From NCBI GenBank assembly GCA_017406505.1, contig JAFQYI010000064.1, positions 1 to 33,335 of the forward strand: a DNA stretch of 33,335 bases. Reading direction: 5' to 3'. The notes beneath the pieces were generated by a model. It saw nothing but the letters and a program-made list of their open reading frames with translations. It was not told where the DNA came from and did no database searches. Every line of letters starts with the position of its first letter. Position 1 is the stretch's first letter. This stretch comes from a bacterium (lineage in GTDB: Bacteria; Cyanobacteriota; Vampirovibrionia; Gastranaerophilales; Gastranaerophilaceae). A program made the position numbers and the translations under genes. Positions 4,879 to 25,161 of this stretch are shown here, in pieces.

Positions 4879-7143
4879 ATGAAAAAATTGTCTTTGGCAT
4901 TTGTTTGGCACTTACATCAACCAAATTATCGTTCTTCTGATGATGATGTAATGCTAATGCCCTGGACAAGATTGAATGCTGTTCAAACTTATTCCGGAAT
5001 GCTTGATTATTTGGATAAATTTCCAAATTTAAAACTTAATTTTGATATATCACCTGTTCTTCTTGATGCTATACAAGGATATGCTGATGGTTCCATAACG
5101 GATATTCATTCAAATTTAACTTTGACACCTGTTGAGGATTTATCGCAAGATGATATGGAGTTTATTTTAAATTACTTTTTCTCTTTAGATTACAATCGAC
5201 ATATATCGAAGTATCCTCGTTATGTTGATTTATATAAAAGAAGATTTGCAAAAGAAGAACTTGATATTGATGATTTTTCTATGTCCGGATATTCGGATAT
5301 AATGACTCTTTTCAATCTTGTATGGTTTACAAAAGAACAATTAGAACAATATCCGGAAGTTGCTGAAATTGCAAAAAAAGGAAAACATTATACTAATAAA
5401 CATCGTGAAACTTTACTTAATGTTCAGAAAAAAATAATAAGTAACATAATTCCAAAATTTAAAAAATATCTTTATGAGGATAAAATAGAAATTTTAACTT
5501 GTCCATATTATCACCCAATATTGCCAATATTAGCGAATATGGATTCAGCAAAAGAATTTTCATTAAGAAATCCATTACCCGGAAGTGATATAAAAATGCC
5601 TGATAGTACAAAAATACAAATTGAAAAAGGCTTAGAAAGAACTGAGGAAATATTTGGAGTAAGACCAAAAGGAATTTGGGCACCCGAACAATGTATTAGC
5701 AATGAAGTAGTAAATATGATGGCAGATTTGGGTTTAAAGTGGACAATTTCTGATGAAACGGTTTTATCTGATACTTTAAATAAAGAGTTTATAAGAGATT
5801 TTAATGGATTTCATCAAGATCCTTATGAATTATGTGAAACATATTCAATTAACTTTAATTCCCAAAATTTTAATATAATTTTCCGAGATTCAGTTCTTCC
5901 GACGCTGATAGCACTAGAATATGTAAATTATGATGCAAAAACTGCTGCAAAAGATTTATATGACAGAATAAAGGTTGTATATAATAAGTTGCAAAATGCA
6001 CCTTGTAACAGTCATTTGCTTACTATTGCAATGGATGGTGAAAATGCTTGGCATAATTATCCTGATGGTGGTGTTGAATTTTTAAGTGAAATATACAAGT
6101 TAATATCTGAAGATAAAACACTTGAAACAGTAAAAATAAGTGATTACATTGAAAAAATCGATCATGTTCATCATATAGAAAATATTAAAACAGGTTCGGG
6201 TATAAAAAAAGATTTTAGATTTTGGACGGCAGAACCTGTAAAAAATATGGCTTGGAGATACTTGTTTAATGCTTATGAAAATTTAAAAATTTTTGAAAAA
6301 GAAGAAAATGTAGACCAAGAAAAAATAAAACAGGCATACGAACATTTATATAATGCTCAAGGTAGTGATTGGTTCTGGTGGTTTGGAGAGCCAAATGATT
6401 CAGGTCAGGATCATTTATTTGATTATTTATTTAGAGAACATCTTAAAAGTATTTATACTACATTAAATAAAGGTATTCCTGATTATTTGAATGAACCATT
6501 GGCATCGTTTACAGGGAAACCTTCAAGAATACCAAAAGGCTTAATATCACCATCTTTAAAAGGTAAATCCGATTATGAAGATGAATGGAAAAATGCAGGC
6601 TGCATAGATATTCCAACATCTCCTTTAACAAATGAAAATAAATTATTTAACAAAATTTATTTTGGTTCTGACTATGATAATTTATATTTTTTGTTTGACG
6701 TAAACCAGTATATATATAATTTTAATACTGAAAATGAGCCGATTTATCAAGTATATGTTTATATCAGAACAAATAATGATAAAAATCAATATACGGCACC
6801 TGTAAGACCTTTAAATAAAACTGAAAATGTATGTAATCTTTTAAAAAATTCTTATACATACGAAATAAAATTAACTTTTATGAAAGATAAGAATTTTCCA
6901 TTATTTTTTTCTAATGCAATAAAAAATAACCTTTGGTCAATAATTAAAAATCATTCTGTTGAATATGTTCACGAAGATGTTATTGAAATGAAGATTCCAT
7001 TTGATGATTTACAAATTCAAGCAGGTGAAAAAATTGATTTCTTTATAATTAACGGAACTTTTGGAAAAATAGAAAATATTTATCCACAAGACTTATGGCT
7101 GACTATAAAACGCCCCGAAAGACAATTTTCTCCAACTAATTAA
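4879..7143 (+). CDS. Glycoside hydrolase family 57 protein with C-terminal glucodextranase-type domain
   Basis: GH57 enzymes act on alpha-glucans (amylases, branching enzymes, 4-alpha-glucanotransferases) with a retaining mechanism. The family hallmark HLHQP is at residues 11-15. The presumed nucleophile is Glu270 in GIWAPEQCIS and the presumed acid/base Asp386 in IAMDGENAW. A helical part with DWFWWFGEPNDSGQ follows near 500. Residues about 570-750 form a beta-rich domain (IYFGSDYDNLYFLFDV, VYVYIRTNN) like the C-terminal domain of glucodextranase. There is no signal peptide, so it is probably cytosolic and acts on a storage glucan. An AGAGG ribosome site precedes ATG 4879. Its stop overlaps the end of the opposite-strand glycosyltransferase by eight bases, leaving no room for a terminator. 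Exact activity cannot be fixed from sequence alone. Confidence 0.9.
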   Translation: MKKLSLAFVWHLHQPNYRSSDDDVMLMPWTRLNAVQTYSGMLDYLDKFPNLKLNFDISPVLLDAIQGYADGSITDIHSNLTLTPVEDLSQDDMEFILNYFFSLDYNRHISKYPRYVDLYKRRFAKEELDIDDFSMSGYSDIMTLFNLVWFTKEQLEQYPEVAEIAKKGKHYTNKHRETLLNVQKKIISNIIPKFKKYLYEDKIEILTCPYYHPILPILANMDSAKEFSLRNPLPGSDIKMPDSTKIQIEKGLERTEEIFGVRPKGIWAPEQCISNEVVNMMADLGLKWTISDETVLSDTLNKEFIRDFNGFHQDPYELCETYSINFNSQNFNIIFRDSVLPTLIALEYVNYDAKTAAKDLYDRIKVVYNKLQNAPCNSHLLTIAMDGENAWHNYPDGGVEFLSEIYKLISEDKTLETVKISDYIEKIDHVHHIENIKTGSGIKKDFRFWTAEPVKNMAWRYLFNAYENLKIFEKEENVDQEKIKQAYEHLYNAQGSDWFWWFGEPNDSGQDHLFDYLFREHLKSIYTTLNKGIPDYLNEPLASFTGKPSRIPKGLISPSLKGKSDYEDEWKNAGCIDIPTSPLTNENKLFNKIYFGSDYDNLYFLFDVNQYIYNFNTENEPIYQVYVYIRTNNDKNQYTAPVRPLNKTENVCNLLKNSYTYEIKLTFMKDKNFPLFFSNAIKNNLWSIIKNHSVEYVHEDVIEMKIPFDDLQIQAGEKIDFFIINGTFGKIENIYPQDLWLTIKRPERQFSPTN

Positions 7144-22372: not shown

Positions 22373-22410
22373 ATAAAAGAGGTAAACATAAAAATGTTTA
22401 CCTCTTTTAT
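22373..22410 (-). terminator. Strong terminator after secY
   Basis: A 17-base-pair perfect stem (22373-22389 with 22394-22410) with a four-base loop, starting 15 bases after the secY stop on the minus strand. The stem ends in TTTTAT and is followed by TTTTG. It separates the ribosomal operon from adk. Confidence 0.85.
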
Positions 22411-22424
22411 AGCCTTTGTAAGGA

Positions 22425-23774
22425 TTATGGTTTTTCTTTTAAGAAACTTTCATAACTTCTCGATAAAAGATGTGTTTTTACTTGATTTAAGAAATCTAAA
22501 GCAACACCGACCATAATTATTAACGAAGTTGCACCAAGACCCTGTAATGTTGTAACATTAGTAATTTTTGCGGCAAAAGAAGGAATCAATGCAATAATGC
22601 CTAAACCTAAAGCTCCAATAAGGGTAACCCTGCTTAAAATTTTATCTAATGCTTCTGCAGTAGGTCTGCCAGGTTTTATACCGGGAATTGAAGAGCCGTA
22701 TTTTTTAAGATTATTAGCAATTTCTTTTGGCTGCATATTGGGAATAATTGATGCATAGAAAAATGTTAATACTACTATCAATAAGAAATAGATTGCAGTA
22801 TAAGTAAATGTTGATGGATTAAAGTATGCAGAAAGTTGAATCATTATATCCTTAAACGGACCTGCCGGAAAATTGGATTGCCCAACTAATTCCAATATTG
22901 TCGTTGGAAATAACAATATTGCTACTGCAAATATTATAGGCATTACTCCACCGGGATTAAGTTTGAATGGAATATATGTATTCATTCCTCCATAAACTTT
23001 ATTTCCCACTTGTCTTTTTGGATTTACAATAATAATTTTTCTAGCAGCTTCGTGCATAATTACAATAAGAACCATTGTAGCAAAGAATATTATTAATAAT
23101 GCCATTAATCCCCATTGTAATCTTGCATCTCCAGCAACAATTTTTGCAGTTTTTTCACAATAGAAAGGTATTCTTGATAATATACCCCAAAAGATTATCA
23201 TTGAAGCACCGTTTCCAATACCTCTTTCAGTTAAAAGTTCTGCAAGCCACATTACAAAAACAGCCCCTGCCGTAAGTATGCATATTGAACCAATAATAAA
23301 TAATGGCTGATTCACATTTGGCATTAATGCTGCTTGTGCATTTCTTGTAAGGAAAAGTACAAAAACAAGAGATTGAAAAATTGCAACAATTACTGTTAAT
23401 AATCTTGTATATTGTGAAATTTTCCTTCTTCCTGCTTCACCTTCCTCTTTTTGAAGTTGTTCCAAATGAGGAATAACAACGGCTAATAGCTGCATTACAA
23501 TTGATGATGTTATGTATGGTCCTATACCTAGAGCGATAATAGATACATTTCCCAATGCACCACCGGAAAACATATCTAAAAATCCTATGATATTTTCTCC
23601 ACCTGCAATATTTAAAAAATTCAAATTATTTATTCCAAATAAAGGCAGTTGCGTACAAAAACGAAAAATCATCATTACAAAAGCAGTAAAAATTAATTTT
23701 TGTTTTAAACCGGATGTTTGGAACATCGATTTTAAATCATCAATACTGGGTGGTTGTATTTTTGGTTGTGCCAT
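22425..23774 (-). CDS. secY: Protein translocase subunit SecY
   Basis: The 449-residue channel subunit of the Sec translocon, with ten predicted membrane helices. The N-terminus (LKQKLIFTAFVMMIFRFCTQLPLFGIN), the plug region (LDMFSGGALGNVSIIALGIGPYITSSIVMQ) and the cytosolic loops including RKISQYTRLLT are family-typical. The gene shares one base with the rplO stop (TAATG), so translation is coupled. It is the last gene before a strong terminator. Confidence 0.97.
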   Translation of the reverse strand: MAQPKIQPPSIDDLKSMFQTSGLKQKLIFTAFVMMIFRFCTQLPLFGINNLNFLNIAGGENIIGFLDMFSGGALGNVSIIALGIGPYITSSIVMQLLAVVIPHLEQLQKEEGEAGRRKISQYTRLLTVIVAIFQSLVFVLFLTRNAQAALMPNVNQPLFIIGSICILTAGAVFVMWLAELLTERGIGNGASMIIFWGILSRIPFYCEKTAKIVAGDARLQWGLMALLIIFFATMVLIVIMHEAARKIIIVNPKRQVGNKVYGGMNTYIPFKLNPGGVMPIIFAVAILLFPTTILELVGQSNFPAGPFKDIMIQLSAYFNPSTFTYTAIYFLLIVVLTFFYASIIPNMQPKEIANNLKKYGSSIPGIKPGRPTAEALDKILSRVTLIGALGLGIIALIPSFAAKITNVTTLQGLGATSLIIMVGVALDFLNQVKTHLLSRSYESFLKEKP

Positions 23775-24455: not shown

Positions 24456-25031
24456 CTAATTAAGCATTTCTTTTAAAGAAATACCTCTTTTGTCAGCAAC
24501 ATCCTTGAAACTTCTTAATGATTTAAGAGCATCAATAGTTGCATTTGCTGCATTAAGAGGGGATTTAGAACCTAATGATTTACTCAAAATATTTTCTATA
24601 CCTGCAAGTTCTAATACAGCACGAACAGCACCACCTGCGATAACTCCGGTACCTTGTGAAGCAGGTCTTAACATTACACTGCCTGCACCTGAACGACCTG
24701 TTATTGGGTGGGGTATTGTAGTCTTGAATACAGGAACATTTATAAGATTTTTTCTTCCGTCTGCCACTGCTTTTTGTATTGCTGTTATAACTTCTGCAGC
24801 TTTTGAACAGCCAACACCTACTTGTCCATTTTTGTTTCCAACAATTACAATTGCTCTAAAACTTAATTTTTTACCACCTTTAACAACTTTAGTTACACGG
24901 CGAATTTGGATAACGTGTTCTTTCCATTCGCTTTGAGCAGGAATTTCTTCTTTTGTTTCAATCTTTTTTCTTCTTGATTTAGGATTGATTTCTTTCGTTT
25001 CTTTTACTTCTTCCACTTTTTTGCCTTTCAT
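24456..25031 (-). CDS. rpsE: Ribosomal protein S5
   Basis: A small-subunit protein important for decoding accuracy. The N-terminal RNA-binding domain reads [20 protein letters not shown], close to the cyanobacterial form, and the C-terminal domain has [16 protein letters not shown] and [11 protein letters not shown]. Before the core is a charged, lysine/glutamate-rich tail of about 30 residues. The ATG at 25031 lacks a ribosome site. A GTG five codons later (25016) has AAAGG seven bases upstream and may be the real start. It is the first gene of its operon; rplR, rplF and the rest of the spc genes are not upstream. Confidence 0.96.
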
Positions 25032-25050
25032 TAGTAAAACTTTTACAATT

Positions 25051-25102
25051 AAAAAAACATGACTTATTTTGAAAATTTTAGCGAATTTTCAAGTTCATGT
25101 TT
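25051..25102 (-). promoter_or_regulatory. Terminator-like hairpin in the rpsE leader (possible attenuator)
   Basis: On the minus strand an outer stem AAACATGA/TCATGTTT (25102-25095 with 25062-25055) encloses an inner eight-pair stem (25091-25084 with 25077-25070), and the outer stem runs into seven consecutive Ts (25057-25051). It lies about 20 bases before the rpsE ATG and after a good promoter, so it would be in the mRNA leader. It may control read-through into the ribosomal genes, or simply end transcripts from the upstream AsmA-like gene. Confidence 0.55.
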
Positions 25103-25133
25103 ATCGTGGGGTTATTTTTTTTCTGACTTACTC

Positions 25134-25161
25134 ATTGTATTACATAATATTTTTATTTCAA
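25134..25161 (-). promoter_or_regulatory. Promoter for the rpsE-rpmD-rplO-secY operon
   Basis: Minus strand TTGAAA (25161-25156), a 16-base spacer and TACAAT (25139-25134), each one mismatch from consensus. The start would be near 25127, giving a leader of about 95 bases that contains the hairpin. Confidence 0.55.

Follow-up and report, generated by a model that had tools for sequence, protein, structure and literature searches.

A family-wide structured leader upstream of rpsE in the split spc operon of Gastranaerophilaceae

The rpsE unit and its upstream region

The stretch of DNA analysed here (the window, 33,335 nt) is contig 10 of G000, the 1.8-Mb assembly of a Gastranaerophilaceae genome. 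Its minus strand encodes rpsE (S5; 24456–25016, with the Pfam S5 N and C domains and a start inferred from relatives), rpmD (L30; 24253–24444), rplO (L15; 23774–24226) and secY (22425–23774), the last three also assigned with Pfam, as were adk and methionine aminopeptidase on the same strand. The gene order rpsE-rpmD-rplO-secY was found in 74 of 74 loci. In Gastranaerophilaceae the S10-spc cluster extends as far as rplR (L18) and these four genes lie elsewhere: in the genome of the window the cluster can be followed to L18, where the contig stops, and on contig 11 of G010 (L234, about 5700–6000) the S10-to-L18 cluster is followed by a 12-bp terminator-like hairpin and then by dnaJ. The family thus has a split spc operon in which rpsE-rpmD-rplO-secY forms a separate unit, and the leader described below is the unit's own. 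At the other end of the unit, a 17-bp perfect hairpin with Ts lies between secY and adk (22373–22410, minus strand). It looks far more like a terminator than the hairpin of the rpsE leader does, and may end or lower transcription ahead of adk.

Upstream of rpsE, along the minus strand, a predicted promoter (25134–25161; TTGAAA-16-TACAAT) has its −35 element TTGAAA at 25161–25156 and its −10 element TACAAT at 25139–25134, and matches 10 of the 12 consensus bases. It is followed by the invariant motif GTCAGAAA (25120–25127) at the predicted transcript start, by an unpaired stretch that is A-rich and then C-rich (25103–25119, with CCCC at 25111–25108) and by a two-part hairpin (25102–25055). The outer stem of this hairpin, P1, was defined by folding and covariation and comprises the 5′ arm AAACATGA (25095–25102) and the 3′ arm TCATGTTT (25055–25062); the inner stem, defined by sequence and folding, comprises the 5′ arm TTGAAAATT (25084–25092) and the 3′ arm AATTTTCAA (25069–25077). 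A run of seven Ts (25051–25057) comes directly after P1. The promoter, the two-part hairpin with its seven Ts ahead of rpsE and the two minus-strand copies of TAAGTCA had all been described in an earlier note on this DNA, and each of them is present in the window.

Single-sequence folding of the window leader gave −12.6 kcal/mol (z −1.6), with 15 of 200 shuffles as good, and from its own genome alone the hairpin is only marginally better than chance. Promoter-like sites are common in this AT-rich DNA (68 found versus 48 expected), so the promoter taken alone carries little evidential weight. The single sequence would be insufficient to sustain the claim.

The S5 start codon is probably the GTG at 25016, because the sequence GTGGAAGAA, seven bases 3′ of the Shine–Dalgarno sequence GAAAGG (25024–25029, assigned from sequence and relatives), is common to relatives, and an upstream ATG at 25031, which overlaps GAAAGG, is missing or out of frame in several of them. 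With GTG 25016 as the start, the leader reported in the earlier note would measure about 111 nt rather than 95. In many genera (L023–L113) the S5 N terminus carries an acidic extension of very variable length, which ends in a basic RRKK stretch ahead of the conserved domain. Inside the window hairpin (25098–25078, minus strand) we also observed a mini-ORF, ATG AAC TTG AAA ATT CGC TAA (MNLKIR), that varies almost only synonymously across five genomes of the window's genus, with MSLKIR in L008. A leader peptide MNLKIR/MSLKIR was rejected as a candidate, the mini-ORF being confined to g1, lacking a Shine–Dalgarno sequence and missing from other genera.

Conservation and covariation across the family

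An rpsE gene was identified in 281 of the 288 family genomes and in 113 of the 117 genomes of a class sample, and was 88–91% identical in relatives that include Candidatus Gastranaerophilales MAGs. When 146 distinct regions upstream of rpsE were compared across Gastranaerophilaceae, 145 showed one leader plan, the exception (L210) being a mis-picked sequence. The plan opens with a −35/−10 promoter, whose element positions are conserved in 146 family members. A gap of 6 nt separates it from GTCAGA(A), and an unpaired stretch, in which ACCC, ACTC or ATCC is often present, leads to a long hairpin, which is followed by GAAAGG ahead of the start codon. Because the 6 nt that follow the −10 element are unconserved and the motif itself is invariant, we placed the motif at the predicted 5′ end of the transcript; the start of GTCAGAA, 6 nt past the conserved −10 element, is the position expected for transcript initiation. 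Among family leaders the AU-rich hairpin is highly variable in sequence. Preceded by TA...T, GTCAGAAA occurs 11 times in the genome of the window, and only the rpsE copy precedes a gene in this way; a general start-site element was rejected, as the other 10 of the 11 matches looked coding or unrelated.

Further elements were observed in single clades or leaders. An extra outer stem, UCCC/GGGA, encloses the hairpin and a U-rich strand in L172, L173, L181, L151 and L184; AUCC/GGAU is its form in g41, and it is perhaps a clade-specific elaboration. Upstream of the leader in L005, two near-identical stretches end in GTTCAAATCCTGTTGTCCCGA and resemble repeated tRNA 3′ ends.

RNAalifold found no consensus structure in a mixed MAFFT alignment, and the consensus structure was therefore named by hand and then tested against shuffled alignments and slid pairing partners. 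In an alignment of 60 leader sequences (A1), P1 was paired in 93% of cells, with two-sided changes at five pairs, and the covariation score of the whole structure was 0.263, compared with 0.147 in shuffled alignments and at most 0.150 with slid partners. A covariance model built from A1 (R1) recovered leaders outside A1 at the correct place, with E values down to 6e-8. In the held-out set the covariation score was 0.28 versus 0.14, a comparison that leans towards the model, as the alignment was fitted to R1; in the same model-fitted alignment P1 of the held-out matches was 93% paired and 13 of 18 pairs had two-sided changes.

In searches of whole genomes with R1, the best match lay ahead of rpsE in all 12 of the 12 family genomes, which together yielded one additional weak match (E 0.21) and no credible match at another place. 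Ten genomes belonging to other families of the class gave no match, and neither did the S10-to-L18 clusters or the outgroup rpsE regions. Several outgroup families keep rplR and rpsE joined and others have rpsE apart, and no leader was found in either arrangement. The window's own leader gave no match to R1 at E up to 1, and L008, from the same genus, gave one at the right place with E 0.8. We take the window leader to be a divergent, U-run-bearing variant of the family leader, joined to it by the common layout, the invariant 5′ motif and the leaders of its own genus (L005–L008).

The earlier note had proposed to look for paired changes among relatives. Such changes were found in the outer stem, in excess of both the shuffled and the slid controls, and the stem, whose loss in relatives with rpsE as first gene would by that note have refuted the proposal, was kept in them. 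Together, these comparisons confirm the earlier observation, the leader being beyond chance once relatives are considered.

Termination, decay, pairing and feedback as possible functions

The simplest reading offered in the earlier note was that the hairpin terminates the transcript of the upstream gene, which is AsmA-like in the window, and that rpsE is served by a promoter nearer to it. The hairpin and T-run of the window would suit such a terminator, but the genes upstream of the leader differ between genomes and are divergent in 20 of 82, the strongest conservation is that of the promoter and 5′ motif, both of which precede the hairpin, and the T-run is missing from most relatives. We regard this reading as poorly supported and scarcely credible.

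The same note had proposed a candidate attenuator, and here the hairpin did prove to be a conserved element of the rpsE leader behind a conserved promoter of its own, but attenuation was not supported as its general function. In about one in four distinct leaders, from about 4 of 41 genera (g1, g41, g32 and g17), a T-run directly follows the stem, and most genera retain the stem without it. The second copy of TAAGTCA, which had been thought to allow an alternative fold, is missing even within the window's genus; the repeat is peculiar to the window, and a conserved competing antiterminator fold built on it was rejected on that ground. As the T-run is rare, TAAGTCA is unconserved and the upstream genes vary, we conclude that termination or attenuation is unlikely to be the shared function of the leader.

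For the window's genus taken by itself, an attenuator, in which the hairpin and seven Us would halt RNA synthesis ahead of rpsE unless prevented by a factor or a competing fold, is possible but unlikely. In its favour, P1 leads straight into T7 in leaders of all four genera named above. Besides the persistence of the stem without a U-run and the unconserved TAAGTCA switch, however, the stem at the U-run is asymmetric and has only two G–C pairs, whereas clear terminators here are long perfect hairpins (22410–22373 in the window; after rplR in L234). Moreover, g41 conserves GGAT 3′ of the U-run, where it can pair with an upstream ATCC and where termination would remove it. The T-run is best read as a clade-specific addition: the hairpin may be primarily an RNA structure to which some genera add a U-run, with partial termination in those genera.

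An RNA structure need not have a ligand, and the hairpin could merely protect the mRNA from 5′-dependent decay. Its position about 15–25 nt from the 5′ end and its strongly conserved, sequence-tolerant and AU-rich pairing would be expected of a 5′ stabiliser, but the invariant GTCAGAA and the confinement to a single operon would be left unexplained, and we consider this reading distinctly improbable.

The 5′ motif itself could have a partner in the rRNA, since its sequence GTCAGAAA has as reverse complement the UUUCUGAC that is found without change at the 16S rRNA 5′ boundary throughout Gastranaerophilaceae. In such a scheme GUCAGAAA would pair in trans with UUUCUGAC of pre-16S rRNA, and the rpsE mRNA would sense the rRNA precursor. 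The complementarity was first seen as a 12-mer across genomes, but within each genome it spans only 7–9 nt (8 nt in 24 of 34 same-genome leader/16S pairs, 9 in 8 and 7 in 2). It lies at exactly the same place in all 34 pairs; against this, the match stops at the invariant core, no compensatory changes between the leader motif and the 16S flank were found in these pairs, the A-run does not track the U-run, a family of the same class (f2) has a similar 16S flank without the leader, and some 5 kb of sequence would contain a given 8-mer by chance with a probability of roughly 8%. The complementarity of GTCAGAAA and UUUCUGAC is probably due to chance. We hold it to be very unlikely that the mRNA senses the precursor by this pairing, and equally so that its 5′ end pairs with the pre-16S 5′ boundary or with the 5′ spacer after its release, the hairpin serving as a further determinant; if true, the pairing would couple S5 synthesis directly to rRNA synthesis or maturation. 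A sense copy of GTCAGAA was sought in the rRNA operon, in which only GTCAGAG is present. The pre-16S 5′ boundary (L239–L308), ACUUU(U)CUGACAAUGGAGAGUUUGAUC, is almost invariant across the family and is preceded by a covarying-looking hairpin.

The leader probably controls the S5-L30-L15-SecY operon, and we think it reasonably likely that the leader of the rpsE-rpmD-rplO-secY mRNA is a ribosomal-protein leader through which S5, L30 or L15 exerts feedback. In this mechanism the transcript would start at or beside GUCAGAAA, and the long bulged hairpin would fold near the 5′ end of the mRNA. S5, L30 or L15 in excess would then bind the 5′ motif and the hairpin, and the bound protein would lower operon expression. 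In the few genera with a U-run directly after P1, the window's among them, premature termination could be added, and in genera without a U-run regulation would act on translation or mRNA decay. S5 may serve as a first guess for the ligand, and only as that, because the authors of the r-leader survey discussed below call the first gene a poor guide to the ligand.

Searches of the leaders for features of other kinds gave negative results. Mimicry of rRNA was not detected for S5, L30 or L15. The C-rich 5′ segment was considered as a partner of the Shine–Dalgarno sequence and rejected, as own pairs were not better than swapped ones (0.83 of permutations were as good), which gave no sign of coevolved anti-Shine–Dalgarno pairing. 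Rfam gave no match in the window at the gathering score and, at a relaxed threshold (E up to 1), only chance matches elsewhere.

Relation to known ribosomal-protein leaders

The description that suits the element best is that of a structured leader, common to the whole family and not listed before, that belongs to a split spc operon; it is apparently undescribed so far. Its presence throughout the family exactly at the spc split suggests that the broken operon acquired a control element of its own. The leader would provide a candidate new RNA–protein pair in uncultured gut relatives of Cyanobacteria, and a U-run gained in some lineages and lost in others would exemplify in nature a change of output on one sensor.

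Eckert and Weinberg reported 20 r-leader candidates in 2020, using as the criterion a covarying structure in a consistent position before r-protein genes, and cautioned against reading the ligand from the first gene; none of their motifs is assigned to S5, L30 or L15 or lies before rpsE (PMC7247131). We found no report of an autogenous S5 leader in the sources consulted, and the control of the spc genes outside gamma-proteobacteria, in B. subtilis and other species, has been described as unknown (PMC10931766). Like these r-leaders, the rpsE leader is a structured, covarying 5′ UTR element confined to one lineage and placed before an r-protein operon, and some r-leaders, the L31 motifs, are likewise single bulged hairpins (PMC7247131). 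Its structure is supported by covariation, and its predicted 5′ UTR position before r-protein genes was consistent in all loci tested. It differs in combining a 5′-terminal GUCAGAA with a hairpin, a combination that matched no Rfam family.

Two E. coli systems can also be compared. S8 binds near rplE inside the spc operon and regulates S5, L30 and L15, among others. Feedback by an r-protein on S5, L30 and L15, as proposed here, would be common to both systems; by contrast, rpsH of Gastranaerophilaceae belongs to the other unit, the S10-to-L18 cluster, and the element lies upstream of rpsE. GUCAGA resembles what we take to be one strand of the helix-21-like S8 site of E. coli; no matching second strand was seen by eye in the leaders, and GUCAGA is absent from the 16S rRNA of G035. 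The E. coli S10 operon, controlled by L4, has an attenuator with a terminator-like hairpin in an r-protein leader. The rpsE leader of the window shares such a hairpin, but the U-run here occurs in few genera, and rplD lies in another transcription unit.
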